63,157 nt of DNA from Alphaproteobacteria bacterium (GTDB lineage Bacteria > Pseudomonadota > Alphaproteobacteria > UBA9219), in contig JAGWIK010000013.1 of NCBI GenBank assembly GCA_028866275.1, forward strand, positions 1 to 63,157, in the 5' to 3' direction. Below are positions 22,089 to 38,782 of the stretch, in pieces; the stretch's first letter is position 1; every line of letters begins with the position of its first letter. The position numbers were made by a program, and so were the translations under genes. The notes under the pieces are model-generated. The model ran no database searches. It was not told where the DNA came from and saw nothing but the letters and a program-made list of their open reading frames with translations.

Positions 22089-22352
22089 ATGAAGAAGCGA
22101 TTTACCGAAGAACAGATCATACAGGTTTTGAAGGAGCATGCCGCCGGAGCGAAGGTGGCAGAGATATGCCGGAAGCACGGAGTGTCTGACGCAACGCTGT
22201 ACAAGTGGAAAGCAAAGTATGGCGGGATGGAAGTATCGGATGCAAAGAAGCTGAAGGCACTGGAGACGGAGAACGCGAAGCTGAAACGGCTCGTGGCGGA
22301 TTTAAGCCTGGACAAAGTTGTGTTGCAGGATCTGCTCTCAAAAAACTGGTAA
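22089..22352 (+). CDS. IS3-family transposase OrfA
   Basis: An 87-residue HTH protein ([35 protein letters not shown]) followed by a leucine-zipper region ([18 protein letters not shown]). It binds the element ends and regulates transposition. It ends LLSKNW just past the frameshift site. Confidence 0.92.
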
Positions 22353-23215
22353 GGCCCGCACAGCGGAAGGAAGCCGTGACGCGAGCGATGACGCGTCACG
22401 GTCTTTCGGAGCGTCGGGCCTGTACGGTGGTCAAGCAGAAGCGAAGCAGCCAGCGGTATCAAAGCCAGAAGAATGATGGTGAGTTGCGCGAATGCCTGAT
22501 ACGATTGGCATCAGAGCGACGGCGATTTGGTTATCGACGATTAGCAATCATGGCGCGGCGCGAAGGTGTTGTGTGCAACATCAAACGTATTCTGCGGGTG
22601 TATCGCGAAGCGGGTCTTGCCGTGAGGCGCAGAAAAGGCCGCAAACGCGCGATTGGCACGCGTGTTCCGTTGCCGCGTCCAGATAGCATTAACCAGATAT
22701 GGAGCCTGGATTTTGTATCGGATGCGCTTGTGTGTGGACGTAAGCTTCGGCTGCTTGGTGTCATGGATCAATGTTCGCGTGAGGGATTGAACCTGACCGT
22801 TGACACATCATTGCCGGGTCTGCGCGTTGTGCGCGAGCTTGATCGTCTGGTACGATTACGTGGGTGTCCCAAAGTGATTGTTAGCGACAACGGTACCGAG
22901 CTAACCAGCCGCGTTGTTTTGCAATGGGCGCAGGAACGCAACATTGAATGGCATTACATCACACCGGGCAAGCCCCAAGAAAACGGATTCACCGAAAGCA
23001 TGAATGGCAAAATCCGCGATGAGTTTTTGAATGAACATTGGTTCACGACTTTGGCAGAGGCGCAACAACTGGCTGCGGAATGGCTGCATGATTACAATCA
23101 CGTGCGCCCGCACAGCAGCCTGAATTACCTGACGCCTGTGCAGTTTGTGCAGCGGCAAGAGGCTGTCGGCGTCAGACTCGTGGCGGTCACGCCGCCAGCC
23201 TCTTGTCGCCCCTAA
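22340..23215 (+). CDS. IS3-family transposase OrfB (via -1 frameshift)
   Basis: The catalytic part, read after a -1 shift on AAAAAAC (22340-22346) in the orfA frame. It has an HTH_21 region ([17 protein letters not shown]) and an rve-type DDE core: Asp in [10 protein letters not shown], Asp in [12 protein letters not shown] and Glu in [17 protein letters not shown]. The OrfAB fusion is the active transposase. The frame opens earlier (22205), but that part is read in the wrong phase. Confidence 0.88.
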
Positions 23216-24370: not shown

Positions 24371-24628
24371 TCATGTTCCGACCACCGTGACGTAGGTTTG
24401 AGCGATATCGGTTTTGCCCGGCCCGTCACCGACGGAGGCCATGGCGGCCAAAGCGATGTCGGCGATGCCCGGCCCATTGCCGACGGTAATAAGAGAGGCG
24501 AGGCTGATATCAGCGATGCCTGGGCCGTTTCCGACAACAGTGATGGTGCCTGCAGCGGCGCTAATGCGTTTTGGCCCGTCGCCGACAGTAACGAGGGCAA
24601 GCTGCTCGACGTCGGCGGCCGTTCCCAT
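24371..24628 (-). CDS. 17-residue-repeat tail protein, copy 3
   Basis: An 85-residue protein made almost wholly of 17-residue units of the type I-x-x-A-x(4)-VG(N/D)GPG-x-x-D (ISLASLITVGNGPGIAD, IALAAMASVGDGPGKTD). The start overlaps the stop of the LamG-like gene (TGATG), so they are coupled. The period matches that of the proteins at 25720 and 31660. Each unit probably forms a short strand and turn of a beta-solenoid or fibre (inference). Confidence 0.65.
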   Translation of the reverse strand: MGTAADVEQLALVTVGDGPKRISAAAGTITVVGNGPGIADISLASLITVGNGPGIADIALAAMASVGDGPGKTDIAQTYVTVVGT

Positions 24629-25710
24629 CAGGCCGATTCCAGTCCGAGTTGGCAGAGATTGACGGCGGATGGCGTCCACGCCACGCTGCCAGGCGCTTGC
24701 GTAAACGTCGCCGAGAGATACCAGAACGCGGCGCCGGTCGTGAGAATGATCGGTGACGAAACGTCGTCGACGCCGTTGACGCGGGCATGAAGTTTTAGAT
24801 TGCGCACACCGGAATCCTCTTTACGAGCGCAAGCCGTAACCACCACGCCGTCGATGATGGTGGGCGCGCCAGGTAGATCGGTGATGTTGTAATAATCAAA
24901 CGTGCCGGTCTGGCTCGTCGTGTTGTACATGGCTGTCTGATAAGCCTGCCCATTAACACTATCCCAATTGGCGACGGCGCCGCCCACGCGTGACCATTGA
25001 GTTTGATCGCCGACGGCATTGGGTAAACTTGTCCATACTGAGCGCGGCGGCACGAGTGTTGAGGCGGTGTCCGTGCCGTCCGTCGTGTATGAAACCAGAT
25101 CATCGACGACGATGTTTTGGCCGACAGAAGAAACACCGGCTGATGTGAAGGTAATATATTGAAGCGGAAAGGTGATGCCGAGCGTAGCGGTAGCGATAAC
25201 CGCGCCGTTCAAGGCCAGAGCAATCCAGCCGGAATTTGGATTGCAGGATACGGACAACCAGTATTGCGTGTTGGCGCTGACGGCAAACGAAGCCGAGGTC
25301 ACCAACACCGCGTTAGTTGAATTCTGCCGGATGCGAACGGTGCCGGTGTTATCGAGCGTGATACGAAATCCGTCCGCGCCAATGCCGCCTGCCGATGCCG
25401 GAGGCGTTGCGGTGAATTGAAAGAGATTGCCTTCGCCACCAGGAAGCGCCGGTAGAAACCAGCCCATGCCCAGATAACGCGTGCCGATATTGGGCACCGT
25501 CCAGATCACGCCGCTATTGACGAAATTGCCGAGATTGAGCGCCTTTGAGATAACGCCGCTGGCCTGCAATGTGCGCACGCCTGTTGTCGTTGATATGCTC
25601 ATAAAATTGCCGTTGGAAAGCTGCGCTGTCCAGGGCGATGCCACCTGAGCGATATCGCTGACGGCTCCAAATTGTTCGAAGCCGCAGGCCCATTCGAGGG
25701 TAAGGGTCAT
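24628..25710 (-). CDS. LamG-like tail protein, paralogue 3
   Basis: A 360-residue protein, probably a receptor-binding or tail decoration protein. The N-terminal half is jelly-roll-like, rich in strands (DGFRITLDNTGTVRIRQN, GWIALALNGAVIAT, VDDLVSY). The C-terminal domain (TQWSRVGGAVANWD, then ACARKEDSGVRNLKL and VAWTPSAVN) is shared with the proteins at 26037 and 32494. It is coupled to the repeat gene downstream. Confidence 0.7.
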   Translation of the reverse strand: MTLTLEWACGFEQFGAVSDIAQVASPWTAQLSNGNFMSISTTTGVRTLQASGVISKALNLGNFVNSGVIWTVPNIGTRYLGMGWFLPALPGGEGNLFQFTATPPASAGGIGADGFRITLDNTGTVRIRQNSTNAVLVTSASFAVSANTQYWLSVSCNPNSGWIALALNGAVIATATLGITFPLQYITFTSAGVSSVGQNIVVDDLVSYTTDGTDTASTLVPPRSVWTSLPNAVGDQTQWSRVGGAVANWDSVNGQAYQTAMYNTTSQTGTFDYYNITDLPGAPTIIDGVVVTACARKEDSGVRNLKLHARVNGVDDVSSPIILTTGAAFWYLSATFTQAPGSVAWTPSAVNLCQLGLESA

Positions 25711-25719
25711 GGGTCAGTC

Positions 25720-26040
25720 CTATGTAATAATCCAAACGAAAGGCTCGACCGTTGTTGGCGGCGGCCCGGAGCCGTTGCCGCGTAAAACTTCGACCGCAAC
25801 CTGACTGAGCGAAATCGCCGCCTGGCCTTGACGGAGAACTTCCAGCGCAAGCTGAGTTGCGTTGACGCGGACGGGCGCTGCGTTAAGCGTGCTGCGCAGA
25901 ACCTCGACGACCGCTTGTCCCAAATTGATGGGCGGCACACGGCTTCGCAAAACTTCGGCGGTAACCTGCGTTTGATTGACGGACGGCTGTCCTTTACGCA
26001 GAACCTCGATTGCGGTTTGCGTGATATTGATATTTGTCAC
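25720..26040 (-). CDS. 17-residue-repeat tail protein, copy 2
   Basis: A 106-residue protein with five units of about 17 residues (INITQTAIEVLRKGQPS, VNQTQVTAEVLRSRVPP, VNATQLALEVLRQGQAA), each with a Q-x(4)-EVLR core, then a Pro-rich end and a short hydrophobic tail (VEPFVWIIT). The start overlaps the stop of the LamG-like gene by 4 bp. I have seen this type of repeat in other phage tail regions; its function is not known to me. Confidence 0.7.
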   Translation of the reverse strand: MTNINITQTAIEVLRKGQPSVNQTQVTAEVLRSRVPPINLGQAVVEVLRSTLNAAPVRVNATQLALEVLRQGQAAISLSQVAVEVLRGNGSGPPPTTVEPFVWIIT

Positions 26041-27512
26041 GACGCGATCTTGGTTCCGGCGGTCACGCTATTGACGCCGCTTGCCGTCCAGGCGGCCGAT
26101 GTATTGGGATCGGTGTCCTGATAATTCGAAAAGTAAGCGTAAGACGCAGAGGGTGACTGAGATGAGCCTGTAACTTCCGTGGTGCCGGACTTAAGTTGCA
26201 CCGTGATCGTTCGCGCGCCGCTATCAGTCTTGCGTAACAGCGCCGAGACCTTAACTCCGCCGATATTGCTTGGCGTCGAACTGAGCGAACCAAAGTTATA
26301 ACGATCTTCGGCGCCCACCGTGCTGGAGGTGACACAGCTGAGATCACCGCCGGGCGGCACTTCGTTCGTCTCGGAATAATTCGTACTCATGCCCGTCACG
26401 TTGCCCCAAACCTGAAGACTCGACTGGCCGGAACTCATGCTCGGCGCGGTTGATGGCGGTGCGCTTGTATAGGTCACGCTGGCGGTATATCCCGCGTTCG
26501 TCGCAAAGCTGCTATTGTCCTGCCGTTGCATAGTGAGCGATGTGTCCGTGACATAGCCGATCCAATAATTTGTGCCCGCCGTCAAAGATTGCGGGGTTGT
26601 CAGATTCATGGTGACAGCGGTTCCTGCCGTGGCACCTGTGACTTGTGAACCGCTGGTAATCAATGTTCCAGGCGAACCGCTGTTATCGGCATAGACGGCC
26701 GGTTTGAAATTAATGCCGGTTGAGGATGCCGCGGGCATGATGCTGATGCTGTTCAAGGTTCCCGATACAGGGGCCGTGAACTTGCGCAAAAACAATTGGC
26801 CTGCCGACATAAAGCTCGTCGATCCGCTGAGGCTGTAATAAGCGCCAAGCGCGCCCTGGCTCGGCGTAAAGGCGACCGACGCATCGCTGGTCGGGAACAA
26901 AGTTTCGACACGACTGTCGCCGCGCACCGCATTGTTGACGGAGCCGGTGCTATCGAACAAATACATATCGTCGATATTGCAAACATTACCCTGCAAGATC
27001 ACCTGATTGGCATAGGCGTTGCTGCTGCTCTTCAGATTGCCGGTGCCGCTGAGAACCGAGACGCCGTCAAGATAGACCGTATAAGAGCCGCTCGATGCAA
27101 AAGTCAGATCCCATTCGACATAATGCCATGTATTGGCAGTGATCGCGGTTGAGGTGATGGCGATTTGCGTACCACCAAGGCCGCCTTGCCAGAGGACAAG
27201 TTTGCCCGCCGTATTGAAACCGATAGCGCATTGGTTAGTACCGGCATCGCCAAAGATGATGCCGCCATTGTTAGACAAATTGGAATTTAAGGCTAAACCG
27301 CCGATCAGGCGGCCGTAATTGCTGGGCAAAGTGCGGCTGGCTGGAGCGAATTGGTAGCCCAATTGTAACGCCAGGCTGTTAGTAAAGCGGCCCGCAACAA
27401 AGGACGATGAACTGCTAGGTACCACCGTCCATTCGCTGTTCATAGTTGAATTGGATGGTGCGCAATTAAGGGGGCCGTATTTATCGAAGCCGTCCCAAAA
27501 AATATCGGCCAT
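26037..27512 (-). CDS. LamG-like tail protein, paralogue 2 (with insert)
   Basis: A 491-residue protein starting MADIFWDGFDKYG. Residues about 30-210 are LamG-like (IAITANTWHYVEWDLTF, YTVYLDGVSVLSG, NIDDMYLFDSTG). A middle insert of about 140 residues (MSAGQLFLRKFTAPVSGTLN to SSLQVWGN) is missing from the paralogues. The C-terminal domain (GVKVSALLRKTDSGARTI, DTDPNTSAAWTASGVN) is shared. Probably receptor-binding. Confidence 0.7.
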   Translation of the reverse strand: MADIFWDGFDKYGPLNCAPSNSTMNSEWTVVPSSSSSFVAGRFTNSLALQLGYQFAPASRTLPSNYGRLIGGLALNSNLSNNGGIIFGDAGTNQCAIGFNTAGKLVLWQGGLGGTQIAITSTAITANTWHYVEWDLTFASSGSYTVYLDGVSVLSGTGNLKSSSNAYANQVILQGNVCNIDDMYLFDSTGSVNNAVRGDSRVETLFPTSDASVAFTPSQGALGAYYSLSGSTSFMSAGQLFLRKFTAPVSGTLNSISIMPAASSTGINFKPAVYADNSGSPGTLITSGSQVTGATAGTAVTMNLTTPQSLTAGTNYWIGYVTDTSLTMQRQDNSSFATNAGYTASVTYTSAPPSTAPSMSSGQSSLQVWGNVTGMSTNYSETNEVPPGGDLSCVTSSTVGAEDRYNFGSLSSTPSNIGGVKVSALLRKTDSGARTITVQLKSGTTEVTGSSQSPSASYAYFSNYQDTDPNTSAAWTASGVNSVTAGTKIAS

Positions 27513-27515
27513 GAC

Positions 27516-30341
27516 TTACCTCGTTCCGGTGATGGTGTAGCTGGGGCCAGCAAAGGTGGCGTCAGCGGGCGTTGGCGCATCGAGTTCAAAAACGTCGCCG
27601 GAATTGAGAATGACTGCGCTTGCAAAACTGAAAGTGCCGGTCGTGGCTCCCGCGGCAAAAGCGATGTTGCCGATACTGGTGCCGTTCTGTTTGATGGGCA
27701 GGGTGACCGCACCCGTTGGCGCTGTCTGGCAAACGGCGCGGCTATTGGTCAGGTTGATGGGCAAGGTGACCGCGCGCACCATCTCGATGCGGAACAAGGT
27801 TTGCCCGGATGAGGGAATGCCCGGCAAATAACCAGCGATGTCGTAAGGATTGACGCCCGCCGAGCCTGAAATGGCGGTGACCTGGCCTGCGGCATTATAA
27901 GTGACACCGCCATAGGTTCCCGATGACGCCAAAAGCGGAAAGCCGATACCGGCAGGCGTATAGGAATAGGCCGTGCAGGTCGATAAATCCTGCAAACCGC
28001 CGCCCCAGATATTGAAAGACTGCAGCTTTACCGTGATCGGTACGCCGACATACGCTTGAGGCAAATTGTATTGAAAGACGGCGCCGTCGAGACGCACGAA
28101 TTGTGTTCCCGAAGCATGAGCGCCGGAAGCCGTGCCGTAGAGACCGCGATAAAGGATGGTGAGATTGTAAAGGCCGGTTCCCGTCAGCGTCGCGGTTTGA
28201 AAGGACAGCAATTCGCCGTCGCAATAGCAGAGCGTTCGGTAATTCGAGGCATCGGCCGATGTGCCGGACGACAGCGTACCGGCGCTTTCGTTGAGATTAA
28301 CCGCTAAAGTGTCGGACGTGTCGGGATTGGTGCCGGTGAAAGACGGCAACGCTGCCGACAGCACGCCCATGCGCGCGGGGCCAGCGATCGTGCCGACCAT
28401 CGAATAATTCGTTCCGTCCGCCGAAAGCCAGACATTGCAGCCGCCCCAATTGGGATCGGCGACACCGCCTGTGCCGCCGGAAGCGGCAATCCAGACTTGT
28501 GCCACGCCGCCTGTCAGTGTGGCGTTCGGCTCAAAAATAACCGGCGTGTTGACCGAGGCCGGAATGAGAGCCGGATTGATCGTGAGATTGCTGCTGTTGC
28601 TTTGCGCGGGATATGCGGTTGATGCTGCCGTACCGGACGGAAATTCCTCGGCAACTACCGTCAGAATGCCTTGCTCGTCTTCTTCAATCGACGTGATACG
28701 CACGGCCACATGCGTCATGCCCATGCCGGTATCGGTGAGCGTCACTAAATCCATCGGCTCTAACAGGAAATATTCCCATGAGAGCTTAAAGGTATAGGTG
28801 TTGCGGATATTGACCGCGCGCTGGCAGATCAAACCGGCGGCGATATTGGCGACCGAGCTTTGGGTAAATTCATGAGCCGATATTTGACCGGCGACGCGCA
28901 AACCGAATTGCTCGATGGTGGCCTGATCGCGGGCTTCGGCGATGTTGGAATTATAAAGGACGGTGTTGTCTCGAAACTCCAGCCGGTAGCAATTATAGGC
29001 ATCGTTCGGATCGGAGCGGATAAGCTGCACAGGATCGGCACTATCGGGCCGGACATAATCGCTATCGGACAGATCATAGACGGGCGTGACGTTCGGGACG
29101 AACACATAGCCATGGCCGGTGACCGGCGTATCGCCATAAGGAATGGCTTTCAGGATCGATCCCGACCATACGGCAGCGGTGTTGGTTATCTGAAACCAGC
29201 GCGCCAGAACGTCATTTGCTTTTTCGACCGAATCCAGACTTGGCGAGAAATCCAAACCCAGCGCGCGGCAATAAGTCTGCCAAGATGCATCGCCCGTGGT
29301 CGTGGCGTTCGGGCCGGAAAACCACGAAGCGGTATCGATACTGGACGAAGGCAAACCGACGCCATGAATGCCCGTCAAATAATCCTGCGCGACCAGCGGC
29401 ACATCGGCATCGCCGCGACCGTTGATGCCCGTGTTATAAAGGGCGCCGAAGGTTTCGACCTTGAGTTGTGGCAGCGCATCGCTGGTGCCAAGATCGAAAT
29501 TGGCGGAACAGAGATAGGCGATATAGCGGTAATTGAGCGATTGCGCTGGGTTGTATGAGGCGAGCCAGCCCCATGCCGTTTGCGATGATGTTCCTAAAAA
29601 AGCGGTGAGGCCTAATGCACCCGGACTGGCATATTGATTTTTGCCTTTCCAGATTTTGCCGAAGCCGTTGATCGGGCCGCTGCAAATACCGAAGATGCAG
29701 CCGGTCTGATAATCGTAGCTTCCGGTCTTGCTGCCGCCGCCATTATGGACGAGAATATGCCCTGCAAAATAATTATGATGCGGCTCGACGGTCAGATTAT
29801 AGGTGAAGGCGATATCGGGCGACGGAATAACCGCAACGATTGAAACCGCTTCCAGTTCTTCATGCGCCAGCAAGTCGCCGACCTGCCAGTGTTTAGCTTC
29901 TATCCGCTCCTCGCCATCCTTCCATAGATAATGGTTTTCGGTAACGTGCAAGACACCATCTTCATGATGGATGCGCAGCATGCGGTCGTGGCTGTCATTC
30001 GCCACATCATGTTTATGCGTCAGCTTAACGCGACCCTGAACTTTCTGGCCGGTTTCAGGATCAACGCACCATATCGGATCGCCCGGTCGCATATCTTCGA
30101 TGAAGCGCGGGCCATCAGGCGTCGAAACTTTTGTCTCCGGCGCAAAGCAACCGCTGCCGCCGCCTTTGCCGCCATGTACCTTGATGGCGATAGCCTTAAA
30201 GTTGCCGTACCAGAGAAGATTGATGCCTCCAGCCGCGCGTCCCCAAATCATCGGCACCGGCAACGTAGCGATCGACGTATTGATAGAGATGTCGGTGAAG
30301 GCCGGTTTCACCGATTTGCCGCCACCGAAAAGCCAGCTCAT
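27516..30341 (-). CDS. Phage tail tip / host-specificity protein with Hint domain
   Basis: A 941-residue central tail tip protein (lambda J-like, GTA host-specificity type). It starts MSWLFGGGKSVKP, and the Gly-rich loop at about 57-64 is interrupted by a 136-residue Hint domain (Cys65-Asn200). After the insert, GSYDYQTGCIFGICSGPINGFGKIW resumes the tail fold. The C-terminal third has fibronectin-like and carbohydrate-binding-like strands. The start at 30341 is chosen because GGAGG lies five bases upstream and it overlaps the NlpC/P60 stop (ATGA). Confidence 0.82.
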   Translation of the reverse strand: MSWLFGGGKSVKPAFTDISINTSIATLPVPMIWGRAAGGINLLWYGNFKAIAIKVHGGKGGGSGCFAPETKVSTPDGPRFIEDMRPGDPIWCVDPETGQKVQGRVKLTHKHDVANDSHDRMLRIHHEDGVLHVTENHYLWKDGEERIEAKHWQVGDLLAHEELEAVSIVAVIPSPDIAFTYNLTVEPHHNYFAGHILVHNGGGSKTGSYDYQTGCIFGICSGPINGFGKIWKGKNQYASPGALGLTAFLGTSSQTAWGWLASYNPAQSLNYRYIAYLCSANFDLGTSDALPQLKVETFGALYNTGINGRGDADVPLVAQDYLTGIHGVGLPSSSIDTASWFSGPNATTTGDASWQTYCRALGLDFSPSLDSVEKANDVLARWFQITNTAAVWSGSILKAIPYGDTPVTGHGYVFVPNVTPVYDLSDSDYVRPDSADPVQLIRSDPNDAYNCYRLEFRDNTVLYNSNIAEARDQATIEQFGLRVAGQISAHEFTQSSVANIAAGLICQRAVNIRNTYTFKLSWEYFLLEPMDLVTLTDTGMGMTHVAVRITSIEEDEQGILTVVAEEFPSGTAASTAYPAQSNSSNLTINPALIPASVNTPVIFEPNATLTGGVAQVWIAASGGTGGVADPNWGGCNVWLSADGTNYSMVGTIAGPARMGVLSAALPSFTGTNPDTSDTLAVNLNESAGTLSSGTSADASNYRTLCYCDGELLSFQTATLTGTGLYNLTILYRGLYGTASGAHASGTQFVRLDGAVFQYNLPQAYVGVPITVKLQSFNIWGGGLQDLSTCTAYSYTPAGIGFPLLASSGTYGGVTYNAAGQVTAISGSAGVNPYDIAGYLPGIPSSGQTLFRIEMVRAVTLPINLTNSRAVCQTAPTGAVTLPIKQNGTSIGNIAFAAGATTGTFSFASAVILNSGDVFELDAPTPADATFAGPSYTITGTR
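29742..30149 (-). other. Hint (intein-like) domain inserted in the tail tip protein
   Basis: The domain runs from Cys65 to Asn200 of the host protein. Block A is CFAPETKVSTPDGPRFIEDM, block B has the T-x-x-H pair (HVTENH, Thr134 and His137), and blocks F/G read YNLTVEPHHNYFAGHILVHN with penultimate His199 and terminal Asn200. No homing endonuclease is present. The next residue is Gly, not Cys, Ser or Thr, so ordinary splicing lacks its second nucleophile; cleavage or a BIL-type reaction is more likely. Confidence 0.8.
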
Positions 30342-30778
30342 GAACGCCTCCATGGGCTGAAATAACGGCGGTCTTTGTTTTCAGAGAGCGGGCTCGGCAG
30401 CGAAATATCGGAGACAACCACCATAGCTTCGGGCTGGTAGGCATGAACGACGAGCGGCCAGCCGACGACGATTGCGCCGTGGGCATAGGCGCGACCGATT
30501 TTCCAGACGGCCATATCGCCTGGCTCCGGCGCTGCCACTTCACCTGAATGCTCCATCATCGCGCCGAGATAACGCTCGTCATCGCGGTGCAAATGCCATT
30601 GCACGGAATAGGGGCGAGGATCGAAAGCCGGAACGATGCCCGCATCGACATAGACGCGGACGAGAAGCATGCCGCAATCGACACCGGCTCCCAGCACATC
30701 GGCCTGATGATGATAAGGCGTGCCGATCCAGCGCCGGGCTTCTCTAACCACCGCGGCGCGTTGATCGGTTTCGGACAT
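30338..30778 (-). CDS. NlpC/P60 family tail-tip peptidase
   Basis: A 146-residue cell-wall peptidase of the GTA/siphophage tail tip. Catalytic Cys35 (GVDCGMLL) and His100 (AYAHGAIVV) are present, and WIGTPYHHQADV is typical at the N-terminus. It would cut peptidoglycan during DNA injection. It lies between the BR0599 gene and the tip protein gene, the usual order. Confidence 0.85.
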   Translation of the reverse strand: MSETDQRAAVVREARRWIGTPYHHQADVLGAGVDCGMLLVRVYVDAGIVPAFDPRPYSVQWHLHRDDERYLGAMMEHSGEVAAPEPGDMAVWKIGRAYAHGAIVVGWPLVVHAYQPEAMVVVSDISLPSPLSENKDRRYFSPWRRS

Positions 30779-30784
30779 GCTTTT

Positions 30785-31663
30785 TTAGTACATCGCCAAT
30801 TCAGGAGGCGGCACGAAAGGAAAGCCGCGAAAATTAGCGAGGTTGTTGAAGCGGTTCTGGCATGTTGCCATGCTCTTATCGCAGCCCTTGTAAACGACGA
30901 AGCTGTCACCGGCTGAAGGCAGATAATCGAGAGGGCGTAAAAGGGTCAGACCCGACGTCGTTGATTGACGCACCGTCCGCACCACGCCGACATTGGCACC
31001 GCTTTCAAAAGTGATCGTGCCTTGATCGTAAGTGCCGGCTGCCGATCCCGACCATGGAATAAAAGTGAGCGTCGGACTTGTTCCGACCGTACCGGACGCG
31101 CCATTGGCCGCTTTGACCATGGTGCATAGCCCGTCATAAAGCGTGTTGAGGCAACTCGGCTGCCAGATATCGCGCGGCATATCGACGGCCAGCTTGTTCA
31201 GCATGGATTTGACGGTCATCTTGCAGCTGAGGCGACCGATATTGTCGATGGTCGCCACCAGGCCATGAAAAGTCACGACCGCAGCGCCGCCAATGACCGC
31301 TCCGCCCGGAGCCGTCAGCACCGCACGCGCCCGTTCGATCGTCGCGCCGTCGAAACGGCCTTCCCGCGCGGCGATAGGCCAGGATAATCCGGCAATGGTG
31401 GAGGTCGGCTTAAAGGAAATATCAATCGTCTGTTCGTCGATATCGATCCCGGAGGTCTGTTTGAGCTTGAGACCATCGATGAGAATATCGCCCGCCACAT
31501 AGACAAGCGCAGGCCCACCGGACACCGGAATAGTGACGTTGTATTGCGCGTTCGTGTAACGGACAACCGTGCTGTCAGGAAACGTTATGGTAAAACAATC
31601 GGCAAAAGCGAGTTCGCGGCTGGACTGCAGCGCCGAAATGACGGCAGATGGTGCCGCTTTCAC
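30785..31663 (-). CDS. DUF2163 / phage BR0599 family tail protein
   Basis: A 292-residue tail tip protein. Landmarks: TSGIDIDEQTIDISF, WPIAAREGRFDGATI, a shared middle ending NKLAVDMPRDIWQPSCLNTLY and a C-terminal segment with paired Cys (KGCDKSMATCQNRFNNLANFRG), where Cys residues may bind metal as in GTA homologues. It overlaps the DUF2460 gene by 4 bp. Confidence 0.85.
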   Translation of the reverse strand: MKAAPSAVISALQSSRELAFADCFTITFPDSTVVRYTNAQYNVTIPVSGGPALVYVAGDILIDGLKLKQTSGIDIDEQTIDISFKPTSTIAGLSWPIAAREGRFDGATIERARAVLTAPGGAVIGGAAVVTFHGLVATIDNIGRLSCKMTVKSMLNKLAVDMPRDIWQPSCLNTLYDGLCTMVKAANGASGTVGTSPTLTFIPWSGSAAGTYDQGTITFESGANVGVVRTVRQSTTSGLTLLRPLDYLPSAGDSFVVYKGCDKSMATCQNRFNNLANFRGFPFVPPPELAMY

Positions 31664-32493
31664 GGGATCACCGTGATCAATTTGAGTTCATGCAGCGTCC
31701 ACAGATTGGCCATGAATTCCTCGAAGTTCTGCGTGTCGGCGGCGAAGCGGCAGACAAAATAATAACGAAACGTCGCCGTGATCTGGTTGCCGTAGGCGGG
31801 AGCCGTGTGGAAGGTGAGCGTGTTGGGCGAAGCGAACGTATAGCTGGCTGGATCCTGCAAAACGCCCGCGACATAAACGGCCGATAGATCAGCGGAAAAA
31901 ACATAGCCCACTGGCTCTATCACTTCGCCGACCGTTCGCATGAGGGTGAAAACGGTCGTCGTACCGTCACCCGTTCCTTGCGCACCCATCGTCACATAAC
32001 TGTCCGCCGTGTTTTGCGTCACGGCACCAAGATCGAGCAGAAACGTGTCGTATTGCCCTTGCCGCGCCATGAAGAAACCCATCAAGGTTTCAATTTCCTG
32101 CGTGGTGTCGCCGCGTAGAAGATCAAAACTCAAGGTCAGGTCATAAATGGCGTATTGCTGCCAGGCCGTGCGTATTTCGCGGCCCGATACATGATCGGCG
32201 ACGCGGGTCTTGAATTTCGGTGCAACATGCACACTCCAAGCAAGACCGGGTGATAGCGGGAATTTTTCTGTACTCACGAGGGGCGAACTCCCGATCAGAA
32301 CGAGGGATTCAAGAGCGACATAGGCAAATCGGAGCGGCGCGTGGCCTTTGGCGGCGGCTTCCGTGCAGGCATAGGATTGCCGTATTGGCGCTGTTCCTTT
32401 GGCGACCGCTTCCGCTCCGGCAAGATCGATGCGGACAGGCGCCGTGCCTTTCGCTGCTGTTTCAGCGAGGACAAGATTTATTCTGGCGGACAT
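31660..32493 (-). CDS. DUF2460 tail protein fused to 17-residue repeats (copy 1)
   Basis: A 277-residue protein. Residues about 1-68 form four 17-residue units (INLVLAETAAKGTAPVR, IDLAGAEAVAKGTAPIR, QSYACTEAAAKGHAPLR and a degenerate one). Residues 75-277 are the DUF2460 distal tail domain (FPLSPGLAWSVHVAPKFKTR, MGFFMARQGQYDTFLL, VCRFAADTQNFEEFM). The repeat head is not part of ordinary DUF2460 proteins. It abuts the LamG-like gene upstream. Confidence 0.8.
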   Translation of the reverse strand: MSARINLVLAETAAKGTAPVRIDLAGAEAVAKGTAPIRQSYACTEAAAKGHAPLRFAYVALESLVLIGSSPLVSTEKFPLSPGLAWSVHVAPKFKTRVADHVSGREIRTAWQQYAIYDLTLSFDLLRGDTTQEIETLMGFFMARQGQYDTFLLDLGAVTQNTADSYVTMGAQGTGDGTTTVFTLMRTVGEVIEPVGYVFSADLSAVYVAGVLQDPASYTFASPNTLTFHTAPAYGNQITATFRYYFVCRFAADTQNFEEFMANLWTLHELKLITVIP

Positions 32494-33483
32494 TTACGTG
32501 ACGAGTTCGGCGCCAAGCTGAAGCGCGTTCACGGCTCCATAAGTCCAGCCGGTGCCGGTATTAGGATCAGTGACAAAAATATCGGTGTGACCGGCATAGG
32601 TGGCATTGGTGTTGACGACGGCTCCTGTGGCCTGAGCTGTTCCCGACTGGATGACGGATTTGATCTGGCGCTGGCCTGAATCGTCCTGCCGCGCAACGAC
32701 GATGCTTTGCACCGCAAGGACTTGCGGTGCATTCGCCACTGGCGAAACCGTGTAAAGATCGATATCGCCCGGCGTTGAACACGAGACGTAAGAGCTATCG
32801 TCCATATAAGGGTTGCTGGCCAATTGCCAGTTGAATGAGGCCGATCCGGTCGGCGTCCATTGCGTCGACGCACCCACGCCGTTTGGCGTTTGAGCCGGCA
32901 CACGGGTATTGCCGATAAAATTGTTGAGCGCCGCGCCGCTATTGTCGCAGATATAAAAATCATCGACGTAAGCATTGCCGAGCGAACCAAAATCGAGCTG
33001 GTCAACGCCGGTTGAGGGTGTTGTGCTGCCAGAAGCCGTATTGGTCGAAACCATAGACAGGACGACGGTTTCATTGACGCGCACTGTGACGGCACCGCCC
33101 GTCGATGCGATCACGCCGTAAACTTCGAGATACTGCCAGACAGCGCCGGGGATGACAGCCATCGGCGGCGATGACACGGCATTTGCCGACGATTGCGGTG
33201 TGACGGTAATGGCTCCTGCCGTGGTGAATTTCAGGCTGAAATTCGTTCCCTTGGTCGAGTCATTGAAATTGAGCGTCACGCCGGACGGATTGAGGATCGC
33301 AAAGCCACAATAAAATGTACCGAGCCGCGCCGGTAGATTGATCTGGCCTAATTTGGCGCAGCCGCCACCAGCGCGGCCTTGGCCCGGCAAAATCGTGCAG
33401 TTGGTAAAACCCAGACTTGCCAGCGCCGAGGCCGGAGCCAGCGGCGTCAGATAATCAAAACCGGCGCATTTAATGAGAGCCAT
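32494..33483 (-). CDS. LamG-like tail protein, paralogue 1
   Basis: A 329-residue protein with a LamG-like N-terminal half (WQYLEVYGVIASTGGAVTVR, VDDFYICDNSG) and the C-terminal domain shared with 24628 and 26037 (TQWTPTGSASFNW, VARQDDSGQRQIKS, DPNTGTGWTYGAVNAL). It lies between the tape measure and DUF2460 genes, where most GTA-like tails have no such gene. Likely exposed at the distal tail. Confidence 0.7.
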   Translation of the reverse strand: MALIKCAGFDYLTPLAPASALASLGFTNCTILPGQGRAGGGCAKLGQINLPARLGTFYCGFAILNPSGVTLNFNDSTKGTNFSLKFTTAGAITVTPQSSANAVSSPPMAVIPGAVWQYLEVYGVIASTGGAVTVRVNETVVLSMVSTNTASGSTTPSTGVDQLDFGSLGNAYVDDFYICDNSGAALNNFIGNTRVPAQTPNGVGASTQWTPTGSASFNWQLASNPYMDDSSYVSCSTPGDIDLYTVSPVANAPQVLAVQSIVVARQDDSGQRQIKSVIQSGTAQATGAVVNTNATYAGHTDIFVTDPNTGTGWTYGAVNALQLGAELVT

Positions 33484-33493
33484 TCGTCCGCCC

Positions 33494-36400
33494 TTACGAC
33501 TTGAAGGAGCCGTTACGCGCTTGATTGTTAAGCCAGCGGCGCATGGATGAGCCTTGCTGCGTCAGCACGGACTCAAGATCGACATTGCTTTTGGCGTTGA
33601 TCGTCGGCGCGTAATGGAAGTTGGTGTCGCCCGATGTGCGAGAATTATTGATGGTGCTTCCGCTTGGCGCTTCATTCGAATTGGCGAACCGCATATTGTC
33701 GGCAGCACCTTTCGGAAGCGTCATGCTCTGGCCGCCGCCATAACCAAGCATCGATTTACCCGAACGGATATCGGCGGATTGAGCGGCGGGAACGATGATT
33801 TCGCCCTTGTGAATTTGCGCCACCATGTCGCGCGGCACAGAATCCGTGCCGCTATCGAACATCGCCAACATGCCGGCCATGCTCATAATGCCGCCAAGAC
33901 CGCCGCCGCCACCTCCGCCCGTTGCGGATTCCGTGGACACGGCTGCCGTATTGGCTGCGATGGCACTGGTGTTGGCCGTGGTTTGAACCGTATTGCTGAC
34001 AAGGTTTGACGTTTGCGAGGCGGTGTTACCCGTCGTCGCTGCCGTTCCCGCCGTCATGGCCGTGGTATTCATGGTCGTGACGGCGGTATGACCGGCAAGT
34101 GACGTTGTTAGCGAGGTTAGGGCTGCGGTATTAGCGGTGAGTGCAGTTGTTTGCGTCGCCTGACCGCCAATTCCGGCAGCACCTCCGCCGAGGCCGAGGG
34201 CCGATCCCACACCAGGTAAAGCTCCGCGTTGTCCGAACATCGGTGCCGTCAGGCTCGACAGTTGTGAAGCCAAACCAGAGAAGGCTTGCTTGATGCCGGA
34301 CTGAATAAAACTCAGCACCATCGACTGGGCGAGTTTGCGCATCCCGTCTTGCAAACTCTGCGTGCCGCGCAGCATCCCTTCGATGGAACTATCGAAAGCA
34401 TGTTCGATGGGAGCGAATGCGCTTTCCCATGCCTGCGTGACCTGTTCAGCCGCATGTTTGTTGAGGTTGATTACGTCGATAGCGTATTGCTCATTAGCCG
34501 CCGCCAGCTTGGACTGCGCTTCGGCGATTTGAACCGGGGTACTATTGCCATCGTTAATGATATTCTGAAATTCGGCCTGCTTGGCCTGAAACTCGGCCTT
34601 TAGCGCATCCATGCGGCGGTCGAGATCGGCCTTGGCGTCTTCCCCACCGACATCACCGAACAGCATGTCGACGACACCGCCGCCCTTCTTACCTTTTGGC
34701 GCGGGCGTTCCCGCGAGATCAATCTTGGCGATCTCCGCCCGGCTCGCCAGTGCAATCTCGCGGATTTTGCGGTCGTTCTGGATTTGCTGCTGCAAAAGAC
34801 GCGACTTCTCATCGAGCGCGGTCTTATAGCTCTTGATATCTTCGCCGTAGAGTTCTTTTCCTTTTTCGACCCATTGTTCGGACAAAGCGATTTGCTGGGC
34901 GACATTGCTCTTCGACGCCGCGATCTTGAGGCGCATATTCTCCGAAAAATTCTGCCACTCGTCGGCCAGCGACTTTGTGTCCAGTTCGTGCTGATCGGCG
35001 ACGATCTGCTTACGGATTTGAATTTCCGCTTTTGATCCGGCCTGCACTTGGTCGAGGTGATCTCTCCAGAATTGCAGCTCGTATTGCTTTTGCTGATCAC
35101 CTTGCAAACGTCGGGCGACCAGTTCCTGTTCAAGCTGATCACGCAATGCCTGAATTTGTACAGCGCCTTGGCGGTTATTTACTTCACGCTGCTGACGCTG
35201 CAGCAAGCCAATGTTGTCCCGAATGATCGCCGCTTCGCCGCCGGTGGCCGTTTTCAGCGCCTCTTCGTCGCGCGCCAGTTCCTGTTTGATGCGGCCGCGT
35301 TCCGCATCGTCGGCCTTGAGTTTGAAATTCTCGTCCTGAATTTCGCGCAAAATGCGTAAGCGCTCCGCACCGGCATTGCTCGATACAGGGGTTCCGGCGG
35401 ACGGCACGGAAAAATTCGCTTGCAAGCCGGAGGCTGCGGTTTTCACACCATGCAGCCTGTCGATCATAATGCCGAGGCCGCTTAACACATGGCCAAGCTG
35501 CTCATTAAAACTGTTGAGCCAACTGCTATCGCTGATAGCGCGGCTAACGCCGTACCATGCATCTTTCAGGTCATTGAGGCCGGTTTGAAGCGGCGTAAGA
35601 CCGTCTTTGACAAGCGGGCCAAATTTCGCCTGCAACGCGGCAATCGCTACGCCATACGCTTGTGCTTTCTGGCCGCTCTCTTCAAAATCATGGATCGCTT
35701 GCGCCTGCGACGTTGAAAGAAAAGAGAACCGCTGATCAAGTTTTGTGATGCTGTCGTAACCGCCATTTAAGGCGGTGACGAGTTCTTCGCTGGCTTTCTT
35801 TACATCCGTGCCGGTGACGCGGGCATATCCGGCTGCGGCCTGGCCGAGCGCCAAGTAGGAATTAACGCCGATCTCGCGCTGACGCGCAAACATCTCGACC
35901 ATATCGGTCGCGGTTTCCGTATTGACGCCATGCAATTGACGGAGTGTTTGGATATAGGAACCGATTTGGGAATTGCTGACACCGACATTCTGTCCAGTTG
36001 CGTCTAATGCCGCTCTGACTTCGCCGAATGTTTCAGCCCAATGTTCCGAAGCCGACGCCGCGCTGATAAACGCTTTCGCTATTCCGGCGACAGCAAGCGC
36101 AGCAAGGGTGATCGGGCCGAAAAGCGTTCCTATCGCATTTTGAAAACCGCCCGTCAGTTCGGACAGCACGATAAGCGAACCAGCCCCGCGCTTATAAGAA
36201 CCGATCAGGCTTTCATGGGCAAGAACCAGCTTTTCGCGGAAGATTTGGGATTGATGTTCACCCGCACCGGAAAGATTTTCCATCGGGCCGCGCGCCTGCT
36301 GCAGTTCGGCACGCAGTTTCGATACGCTGGATTGTGCCGACGATACGGAAGCCGCTGCTTGTTGCAATCCTGCCTTCAAACTGTCGGAAGCGCCGGATCC

Positions 36401-36532
36401 GGCCTCCCGCATTTGCGCCGCTAAATTGCGCAATTCGGACGTTGTCGCCGATAAATTGGCTTTGGCGACGGCAAGTTGAGCCACGAGGGGCGTGGTGTCC
36501 GCGCCGATGGTTACGGTAATGTTGGAGGACAT
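33494..36532 (-). CDS. Tail tape measure protein
   Basis: A 1012-residue protein whose length should set the tail length. The N-terminus is a helical repeat region (VAQLAVAKANLSATTSELRNLA), with hydrophobic segments near 140 (LAALAVAGIAKAF). Long coiled coils cover about 380-690. The C-terminus is Gly/Thr-rich (TTSLAGHTAVTTMNTT-type runs) and ends in a basic segment. It follows the two tail chaperone frames, the classic order. Confidence 0.85.
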   Translation of the reverse strand: MSSNITVTIGADTTPLVAQLAVAKANLSATTSELRNLAAQMREAGSGASDSLKAGLQQAAASVSSAQSSVSKLRAELQQARGPMENLSGAGEHQSQIFREKLVLAHESLIGSYKRGAGSLIVLSELTGGFQNAIGTLFGPITLAALAVAGIAKAFISAASASEHWAETFGEVRAALDATGQNVGVSNSQIGSYIQTLRQLHGVNTETATDMVEMFARQREIGVNSYLALGQAAAGYARVTGTDVKKASEELVTALNGGYDSITKLDQRFSFLSTSQAQAIHDFEESGQKAQAYGVAIAALQAKFGPLVKDGLTPLQTGLNDLKDAWYGVSRAISDSSWLNSFNEQLGHVLSGLGIMIDRLHGVKTAASGLQANFSVPSAGTPVSSNAGAERLRILREIQDENFKLKADDAERGRIKQELARDEEALKTATGGEAAIIRDNIGLLQRQQREVNNRQGAVQIQALRDQLEQELVARRLQGDQQKQYELQFWRDHLDQVQAGSKAEIQIRKQIVADQHELDTKSLADEWQNFSENMRLKIAASKSNVAQQIALSEQWVEKGKELYGEDIKSYKTALDEKSRLLQQQIQNDRKIREIALASRAEIAKIDLAGTPAPKGKKGGGVVDMLFGDVGGEDAKADLDRRMDALKAEFQAKQAEFQNIINDGNSTPVQIAEAQSKLAAANEQYAIDVINLNKHAAEQVTQAWESAFAPIEHAFDSSIEGMLRGTQSLQDGMRKLAQSMVLSFIQSGIKQAFSGLASQLSSLTAPMFGQRGALPGVGSALGLGGGAAGIGGQATQTTALTANTAALTSLTTSLAGHTAVTTMNTTAMTAGTAATTGNTASQTSNLVSNTVQTTANTSAIAANTAAVSTESATGGGGGGGLGGIMSMAGMLAMFDSGTDSVPRDMVAQIHKGEIIVPAAQSADIRSGKSMLGYGGGQSMTLPKGAADNMRFANSNEAPSGSTINNSRTSGDTNFHYAPTINAKSNVDLESVLTQQGSSMRRWLNNQARNGSFKS

Positions 36533-37456: not shown

Positions 37457-38782
37457 TCATTCCTGTTTGGTTAAAATAAACTCATCTGAGCCGGTTTCGA
37501 CGCCTGCAGCAGCCGCGAGAGTTCGGAACGCATAAGCCGCAGCCAGGGGGACAACCCCGTTACCGCAGAGGCGCAATCTGTCCACCCGATTGGCCATCCC
37601 ATAAGCCACTCGACAAACAGCGGGTTTAAGCTGAGGGTCGATGTGTTCCCATCTTTCATGCTCCGTGGGGCCTGGCGGCCAAGGATCGAGTTCGTCGGTA
37701 CGTTCTCCGACGTTGCCGCTCCGTCCTTCCAGTCCCGCGACATCGGTGTTGCCCATGCCACGCCCTCATCGGTTAAATTGCGGCCGCCTGCTTGTGTTCC
37801 GAAACGTCCGACTCTTTCCGGGTTGCCTTGCGCAACGTCATGCGCTTGCGGCGTCGCCCACGAATTCACCAGTTCGGTTCGATTGCTCCCGCTTGATCGC
37901 TTTCCGGCGCATGTGCGCGGCGTCGGCCACGACGATTGCACCGCGACCATCGCCAGGTTGAGGCCATGCTCGCCTTTGATCTGCGACGGCGTCGGTTTCG
38001 TTTGCCGGTTCGTGTTGGGATTGGCCATCGGCGTCGGCCACACGAATTTCGCTTGGTTTTCGAGGCCAACTTGCCGCTTTCGACCATCGGCCATTTCGCC
38101 AGTCGATGACATATCCGCAGGGTTAACTCTCCCTCCGTTCGGAACATTTGGCGTGTACCATTGAGTCCGCACCGCGGCGGCGGCCAGATGCGGCGTGCCG
38201 TTGCCGTGATTGCTGTTCGGGCCGCCTTTTTGGCCGTCAGTCGCTACGGCGGTAGGCCAAGATGAACAATCGTTCTCGTCGGTGGGGAGCACCGACTTCC
38301 TCCGCTGCAAACAGGCCAGCCGCAATACTGTAACCCATCGATCGAAGGTCATCATGCGCTTGTTCGAAGCCCAATCGTAAATGTCCGCCGACATTTTCGA
38401 AGAAGCAAAGCGGCGGTTCGATTTCTCCGACGATGTGGGCGATGTGAGGCCAGAGGTGCCGAGGGTCTTTTTCGCCGAGTTTTCGTCCGGCGACGCTAAA
38501 AGGCTGGCATGGGTAGCCGCCATGCACGATATCCACGATGCCGCGCCACGGTTTGCCGTCAAAGGTGCTAACGTCGTCCCAGATAGGCGCTTTATCCAGG
38601 GCTTCGTCTTCCATCCGCGCCACGAGAGCGGCTGCGGCGTAGGTGTCCCGCTCGACATAACAAACAGTTCGATAGCTGGGGACGGCGATGTGGAGTCCGA
38701 GGTCAAGGCCTCCGGCTCCGGCGCACAGGGAAAGTCCGAATAAGGCTTTTCCGCCGGTGGGAGATAAAGCCACGTCATTCAA
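37457..38782 (-). CDS. Cytosine-5 DNA methyltransferase locus with two overlapping frames
   Basis: Frame A (38782-38237) encodes the catalytic half: FGLSLCAGAGGLDLGLHIA, Cys92 in GYPCQPFS, ENV at 119-121 and APHRRERLFILAY, then stops. Frame B (38778-37471) is open for 435 codons; from about 38290 it carries WPTP/WATP repeats and ends LNPLFVEWLMGWPIGWT. Frame A resumes at 37756-37457 with RVDRLRLCGNGVVPLAAAY, a motif-X-like end. A shift of +1 near 38250 would join A to B. It may be a decaying gene, a frameshifted gene or a dual-coding region. Frame A starts at a TTG or GTG. Confidence 0.65.

Follow-up and report, generated by a model that had tools for sequence, protein, structure and literature searches.

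Why would a prophage devote part of its tail region to three genes for lectin-like proteins, each followed directly by a gene encoding tandem repeats of 17 residues? We addressed this question for a 63,157-nt stretch of DNA from an alphaproteobacterium of the lineage UBA9219 (contig JAGWIK010000013.1, positions 1 to 63,157), hereafter the window, in which an inspection of the letters and open reading frames (the sequence-only reading) had pointed out three such pairs and proposed that they represent a paired functional unit, perhaps a receptor-binding protein and its connector. When the gene coordinates were re-checked, all three LamG-like genes and their repeat neighbors were found at the positions and spacings claimed. 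In order of transcription on the minus strand, these are LamG1 (32494..33483, 329 aa) and repeat1-DUF2460 (31660..32493), which abut with a gap of 0 bp; LamG2 (26037..27512, 491 aa) and repeat2 (25720..26040), which overlap by 4 bp; and LamG3 (24628..25710, 360 aa) and repeat3 (24371..24628), which overlap by 1 bp within the sequence TGATG. The pairing extends far beyond this prophage and spans many unrelated phages, including relatives of Chi and CbK. Lectin and array travel together and probably serve, as a kit, to mount adhesins on the tail of the virus, with the array binding its lectin partner in the reading proposed here.

The repeats are genuine. In the three repeat proteins the best self-similarity occurs at an offset of 17 residues, with z values (self-similarity relative to 500 shuffled sequences) of 20.7, 17.4, and 21.3 and with 0/500 shuffles scoring as well; among control proteins of the window, the three LamG proteins, the hub, the NlpC protein, and a holin-like neighbor all remain below z 0.5, and the J-like protein reaches z 2.5 (11/500 shuffles). 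The units share a core approximating hydrophobic-x-Q-x-x-hydrophobic-E/Q-V-L, and the window arrays represent three different sequence types. Array 1 (32275..32484, minus strand; z 20.7) comprises four 17-residue repeats of the type ..AEA.AKGTAPVR, located at approximately residues 4-73 of a protein in which they are fused to a distal tail protein. The identification of this fusion partner as DUF2460 is borne out by Pfam (PF09343, E 1.1e-33, residues 78-275, 116.8 bits relative to a cut-off of 30.4); a match to TIGR02217 falls under its cut-off (36.5 bits; cut-off 136.65), and a relative is present in the PDB, Rcc01695 of the gene transfer agent RcGTA (E 3.6e-4). Repeat2 is a free 106-aa protein carrying five repeats of the type xQxxVEVL and a hydrophobic C-terminus (PFVWIIT), and repeat3 is a free 85-aa protein carrying four to five repeats of the type VGNGPGIADISLASLIT, with DNA copies at 51-nt spacing. 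PHROG 13560 matches repeat2 (E 4e-8) and also gp316 of phage phiCbK; the same PHROG search gave no match for repeat3 or for the repeat part of repeat1. The possibility that the three arrays are recent copies of one another is ruled out by their distinct sequence types. The earlier description of the cassettes as duplicated and diversified holds in an old sense only, as each cassette type has its own relatives bearing their own repeat type.

All three LamG-like proteins match the profile of PHROG 2448 (LamG1, E 1.9e-39; LamG2, E 2e-33; LamG3, E 2.1e-20), with LamG2 and LamG3 being 28% and 22% identical to LamG1, and a hidden Markov model (HMM) of the family spans each of them almost full length, including the C-terminal domain that they had been proposed to share. 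A Pfam search (E up to 1) returned no family for LamG1, LamG2, or LamG3, laminin G domains included. The AlphaFold2 model of LamG1 has predicted local distance difference test (pLDDT) values of mostly 77-96 over residues 1-329, with one ten-residue block at 67, and reveals two domains, at approximately residues 1-197 and, for a C-terminal β domain, 200-329. Comparison of the first with known structures using VIA-align gave a sialidase as the top match (Z 15.5) and galectins, a beta-glucanase, and other chains at Z 12.4-13.4 (rows 2-50 of those listed). As modeled, the N-terminal domain of LamG1 is a concanavalin A (ConA)-like jelly-roll β sandwich, the fold having been read for this one protein within the window, and the label "LamG-like" is therefore apt for the fold and not for the Pfam family. 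A ConA-like fold was also assigned by Foldseek to the model of a LamG homolog from locus L069 (E 1.7e-7 to 4.1e-6 among the 50 matches listed; L-numbers are labels of the loci compared in this analysis). The ConA domain fills the structure-match lists of LamG1, and the C-terminal domain was modeled only as part of the longer chain. LamG2 has an additional stretch between its two domains (residues 230-357), absent from the earlier description, that resembles a choice-of-anchor R domain (NF041539, E 1.1e-6, 28.7 bits, under the cut-off of 30). A sequence search of the PDB (E up to 1) found no relative for LamG1, the LamG profile, repeat2, or YSD1_35, a repeat protein of phage YSD1. NCBIfam yielded no family over cut-off for the window LamG proteins and repeats (the DUF2460 part apart), phiCbK gp316, YSD1_33, or YSD1_35, nor did Pfam for those of the same proteins that were searched. 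In 721 of 820 protein pairs (310/325 in an earlier set), conservation is higher in the C-terminal domain than in the lectin domain, as would be expected if the former serves assembly.

A tblastn search of 50,697 phage records detected relatives of LamG1 in 169, many of which carry the annotation "hypothetical protein," and the surroundings of the LamG gene were read in 23 named records (19 initially, then Motura, of which 3.9 kb was read, VpV262, RPP1, and JS26). Most of the initial 19 records contain LamG genes detected by the family HMM; for Lu11 the assignment rests on tblastn. Candidate arrays were taken from an unsupervised scan of 791 open reading frames (ORFs) for internal periods and then read individually, since unrelated repetitive proteins, such as the collagen-like fibers of Lu11 and tape measures, also rank high and the scan can only point to candidates. 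An array is present in the LamG block of 19 of the 23 records (Fanboy, Polewnik, YSD1, TvV-S20, Kimi, phiCbK, Lu11, BcepSaruman, Pam4, AchV4, XAP3, Papperlapapp, Delta, LR756511, Q29, Marchewka, Leszy, RPP1, and JS26). It follows the LamG gene in most loci, precedes it in L069, and is divergent from it in L057; in LR756511 (595 kb) the array gene and a LamG gene lie head to head on opposite strands. In phiCbK, gp316 consists of three units of the type RLTQETVEVISTSPKPA and a short tail and adjoins the LamG protein gp315, and in YSD1 (L006, 5692-12088) four consecutive LamG-family proteins, YSD1_31-34, are followed by the 709-aa YSD1_35, which consists largely of repeats. Direct adjacency is found at varied sites in the tail module: after the tape measure, before the hub (L088), and after J near the lysis genes (the window and YSD1), as well as in an N4-like podophage. 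Repeat homologs lying usually far from LamG genes would have spoken against a paired unit; in most relatives they adjoin them. Searches in the reverse direction, using repeats alone as tblastn queries, recover near relatives only and are thus a weak test; they returned 4, 24, and 3 records, from Caulobacter (17, equal to the LamG-search count), Brevundimonas, LR756511, and TvV, all of which also appear in the LamG listings. Two repeat-only matches in Motura (E=8), approximately 100 kb from its LamG gene, were taken as chance.

A held-out set of loci was assembled from viral contigs, which were searched with single LamG proteins, the LamG alignment being too variable as a query. One distant LamG protein yielded 24 IMG/VR loci; the LamG protein of Kimi gave no match on these contigs, and two other single-protein queries matched only themselves. 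One of the 24 loci, L075, is the query's own contig (L071), and the other 23 had not been used for motif definition. Eighteen were tested, leaving out L075, L090 and L092 (which end inside a second LamG gene), and L096-L098 (C-terminal domain only, fused to other repeats); as L076/L077 and L091/L093 are identical where compared, the 18 loci count as approximately 16 independent cases. Hand training of the motif model used units from the window, phiCbK, L057, L069, and TvV-S20, none of which derive from the 18 loci. Because an earlier scan on called ORFs had missed arrays in overlapping frames, the scan was made independent of ORFs, comparing a 320-nt stretch at the LamG stop codon with the rest of each locus, with controls omitting the 1.3 kb before the LamG end. 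In 13 of the 18 loci, the stretch at the stop codon outscored the rest of the locus, with a large lead in L084, L085, L087, L088, and L089 and a thin one in L095 (14.6 versus 14.5) and in L091/L093 (one phage; 33.0 versus 31.6, with an apparent second array nearby). In the other five loci (L076-L079 and L082), inspection by eye shows that the gene following LamG begins with two or three divergent units.

Loci from bacterial genomes were read as well. Fourteen of 20 LamG loci carry an array scoring at least 30 in an abutting ORF, counting L121-L123, which are close relatives of repeat2, itself part of the motif training; three more (L124, L128, and L037) carry the window's own divergent array types, and the remaining three are weaker, with L127 encoding a 72-aa repeat protein (z 13.9) and L125 and L126 having no more than two weak units each (L126, z 3.8, 4/500 shuffles as good). 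Among 20 bacterial DUF2460 loci without LamG (5-9 kb each, hand-picked from 69 listed places and mostly strong GTA-type matches), no array was found, and none reaches a score of 13, the highest being 12.3. LamG genes are sparse in randomly sampled genomes, occurring in 1/385 genomes of a class sample (the window's own), 4/398 of a phylum sample, and 9/144 relatives, with the window's own genome included in each count.

Lectin and array are also matched in type. After matches short of the LamG C-terminus, flanks of less than 250 nt, and identical flanks had been left out, matched types were observed at 34 of 35 places, three of which are in the window itself: LamG1 is followed by type 1 in 16/17, LamG2 by type 2 in 8/8, and LamG3 by type 3 in 10/10. 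The single exception, L067, has a type 1 array after approximately 0.65 kb. As a pattern read from sequence, such matching fits cognate pairs but also simple linkage. A second prophage in the same genome (contig C40) has a matching region with LamG1/repeat1-DUF2460 and LamG3/repeat3, from which LamG2 and repeat2 are both missing, suggesting that this cassette was gained or lost as a unit. This joint absence, together with the abutment of arrays and LamG-family genes in most relatives read, upholds the proposal of a paired unit.

The proteins that carry arrays are diverse. In Pfam searches, arrays were found fused to DUF2460 in the window, Polewnik (E 9.3e-28), and Kimi (E 8.9e-5, under the cut-off); to a DUF2163 hub in TvV-S20 (E 1.5e-37) and L088 (E 1.5e-42); to a Gp37-like protein in L089 (E 2.9e-18); to a Gly-rich ALK_LTK_GRD domain in Polewnik and Fanboy; and to an F5/8C domain in L069 (E 3.7e-10) and, just under the cut-off, Kimi. 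Arrays encoded separately, as free proteins of 69-121 aa, are represented by phiCbK gp316, repeat2 and repeat3 of the window, L086, L111-L115, L117, and L119. At least five of the last ten residues are hydrophobic (A and C counted) in 23 of 27 repeat proteins, which were listed by hand and are mutually dependent, versus 139 of 366 ORFs of phage loci; Lu11 and Marchewka have only three. Judging from this composition, the C-terminal end of repeat proteins may be an anchor. In L071 and L076-L082, the gene after LamG encodes approximately 250 aa with two or three N-terminal repeats and occupies the position of a distal tail protein, and these carriers possibly constitute an unrecognized distal tail family. 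In L096, L097, and L098, one ORF encodes the C-terminal domain by itself, joined to long arrays of different kinds (SAEAFGT type; TGSGxEALLSLLA type).

We propose that lectin and array form a two-part adhesion module of the tail tip, in which the array anchors and multimerizes the LamG protein, a reading that we judge to have an even chance of being correct. The LamG-family protein would be the host-contacting part, its ConA-like domain probably binding sugars, and the array would be the holder, whose several equivalent short segments bind cognate LamG proteins and so present several of them on the virion. Array 1 would reach the virion as an arm of the tail-tip protein DUF2460, and free arrays might attach by their own, often hydrophobic, C-terminal tails. 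The prophage in the window would thus possess three modules of different type, presumably located at its tail tip. Mass spectrometry of other phages places related proteins in virions (here and below, statements citing PMC numbers refer to the portions of those papers available to us). The LamG-family proteins 0025 and 0026 of AchV4, described as unlike characterized structural proteins, were found in virions by liquid chromatography-tandem mass spectrometry (PMC7996906), as were gp81 and gp82 of RPP1 by mass spectrometry (PMC4193335). RPP1 gp82 is a weak match to the LamG family (E 5e-8) whose PHROG, 6368, also matches phiCbK gp315 (5e-10), and gp81 contains three 19-residue repeats (z 7.7). 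A broader version of the proposal would be a general docking system in which short-motif arrays bind the common C-terminal domain of interchangeable lectins, hanging many copies of one or several adhesins on the tail tip. Such a system would serve phages as diverse as the Chi-like, CbK-like, jumbo, and N4-like groups, and the array would pass freely from one carrier to another, be it distal tail, hub, or another protein; we put this forward tentatively and consider it somewhat doubtful.

Several observations weigh against the proposed module. The portion of the phiCbK study at hand does not list gp315 or gp316 among the virion proteins it names (PMC3556154; matched by length and order, as the numbering differs), and the AchV4 repeat protein is not named as detected in the corresponding portion of that report (PMC7996906). 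Neither of two read-through AlphaFold2 models, of L069 and the window, contains a confident interface between LamG and repeats: the repeats appear as weak helices in the former (pLDDT approximately 37-53) and lack structure in the latter (approximately 25-34). The interface anticipated by the sequence-only reading thus failed to appear, a weak negative given the shallow alignments and the single chain in each model; in the window model DUF2460 is also mostly below 60, and the alignment included rows without Pfam DUF2460 support. The idea of a receptor binder with a connector stands by implication from the fusion of arrays to distal-tail, hub, and other tail-tip proteins. Similarity among repeats follows that of the C-terminal domain (partial r 0.29) and that of the lectin domain (partial r 0.36), with no link between C-terminal domain and repeats beyond that of the lectin domain, so the C-terminal domain is not singled out as a docking surface and plain co-inheritance explains the pattern. 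Six carriers (L068, L071, L076, L079, L083, and L085) match no Pfam family over cut-off, and a DUF2460 identity assigned by eye to the carriers in L068, L071, and L076-L082 was dropped after Pfam gave no support in L068, L071, L076, and L079. Finally, no clear array was seen in Lucius, VPv81, VpV262, or the 3.9 kb of Motura, and the Lu11 array is three genes from its LamG gene.

Some of these points bear equally on the most durable alternative, that arrays serve as flexible spacers or as shaft segments that self-assemble, do not bind LamG, and are its neighbors by way of an exchangeable host-range block at the tail tip. A generic spacer would be expected to be joined to several different lectin-like domains, as the arrays are, and would be consistent with the low confidence of the repeats in AlphaFold2 and with repeat similarity that follows overall LamG similarity. 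However, free arrays with their own gene link nothing covalently, adjacency to one protein family is maintained in most loci on either side or strand, and three matched types stay together; we regard this explanation as unlikely, though it deserves serious attention. A second alternative, that the repeats themselves bind the host as a peptide-type adhesin beside the lectin, would suit weak receptor binding by multivalent short motifs and the occurrence of arrays as free proteins, but it appears improbable given that phages with widely differing hosts share the core motif, that the lectin domain is the less conserved half of the LamG protein, and that some arrays are fused to the tail-tip core proteins DUF2460 and hub. 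That these are ordinary tail-fiber genes, brought side by side merely through tail-module synteny, as their location in or near tail modules and the recurring order of tape measure, lectin/array, hub, NlpC, and J might suggest, can be given little credence when direct adjacency is kept at different module sites, in an N4-like podophage, and, in a phage of 595 kb, on the opposite strand, and when 0/20 DUF2460 loci without LamG carry an array in the 5-9 kb read.

The array and its lectin can be placed beside known systems. The window shares with the RcGTA baseplate its tail-tip set and order (DUF2460, hub, NlpC/P60-like protein under the Pfam cut-off, and megatron-like protein; 32493-27516, minus strand). 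In RcGTA, Rcc01695 forms one hexamer at the tail end to which the hub Rcc01696 and the megatron Rcc01698 attach, and the receptor fiber is carried on the fiber-binding domain of the megatron (PMC7296036); in the window, unlike RcGTA, the distal tail protein bears a repeat array as an extra N-terminal arm and the LamG gene lies directly upstream. Lectin domains of jumbo phages, including LamG (laminin G3), SPRY, and discoidin, have been linked to tail fibers (Iyer et al., 2021; PMC7824862), with no paired short-repeat array mentioned in the available part of that paper, and LamG and DUF2460 genes have been reported in a CbK-like phage (PMC9127768). The same LamG and repeat pairing occurs in the flagellotropic, Chi-like phage YSD1 (YSD1_31 to YSD1_35), where the array is much longer than those of the window and for whose proteins no role was found in the literature consulted; a different gene, CHI_31, is discussed as the putative Chi tail fiber (PMC10399903), and the accessible part of the YSD1 structure paper does not name YSD1_33-35 (PMC7385642). 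No relation to tentaclins was evident from the portion of their description consulted (PMC10743442).

PHROG 2448 and PHROG 13560 are filed apart, both as "unknown function," and members of the two are here found paired. Cohesin-dockerin scaffolds resemble the proposed module in having repeated docking units on a scaffold that could hold several partners, and this is an analogy only, the units in the window being segments of approximately 17 residues. Within the open-licence literature searched, no description of a lectin/array pair was found. The pairing makes the LamG1 relatives in the 169 records and their repeat neighbors candidates for one adhesion module and offers a testable role for YSD1_31-35 of the flagellotropic Chi group and for phiCbK gp315/gp316. 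It also suggests a plug-in route by which phages might exchange and multimerize host-binding proteins. If the repeats are indeed docking sites, they would be a tag, both compact and portable, by which proteins could be displayed on phage tails.

Together, the cassettes and their neighbors make up the tail-tip module of a prophage. All on the minus strand, its genes run in the order tape measure protein (33494..36532; PF06791, E 5.4e-13), LamG1, repeat1-DUF2460, baseplate hub of the DUF2163/BR0599 type (30785..31663; PF09931, E 1.1e-23, and PF09356, E 1.6e-27), NlpC/P60-like peptidase (30338..30778; PF00877, E 6.6e-4, under the cut-off), megatron/J-like tail tip protein (27516..30353; PF13550, E 4.8e-31, and PF23666, E 9.8e-18), LamG2, repeat2, LamG3, and repeat3, after which comes a small protein with a segment that appears, by eye, membrane-like. 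The J/megatron-like protein harbors an insert at approximately residues 69-204 (29742-30149, minus strand; Hint_2, E 1.9e-6) that is flanked by glycine-rich stretches, starts with Cys, and ends with HN followed by Gly; from these sequence features it looks like a bacterial intein-like domain. The J protein of the second prophage is without it at that site, and two other related genomes carry the insert at 71-88% identity. Also in the tail module, a DNA cytosine methyltransferase-like gene (37471-38782, minus strand) spans, by eye, two overlapping frames and seems to be either broken or frameshifted, and an IS3-like transposase pair (22089-23215, plus strand; by eye) lies directly downstream of the tail block.

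Three further observations concern the loci used for comparison. In L059 (Proteus phage Q29), LamG-family matches fall on both strands of one stretch and are to be read with care, as the deposited sequence may be partly inverted. L007, labeled "Tetraselmis viridis virus S20" after an alga, has a tail module of the siphophage type that includes a DUF2163 hub, suggesting that the host label may be wrong. Near phage tail genes in L069 (961-1989) and L017 (479-1489), proteins with Radical-SAM-like cysteine motifs were noted by eye.

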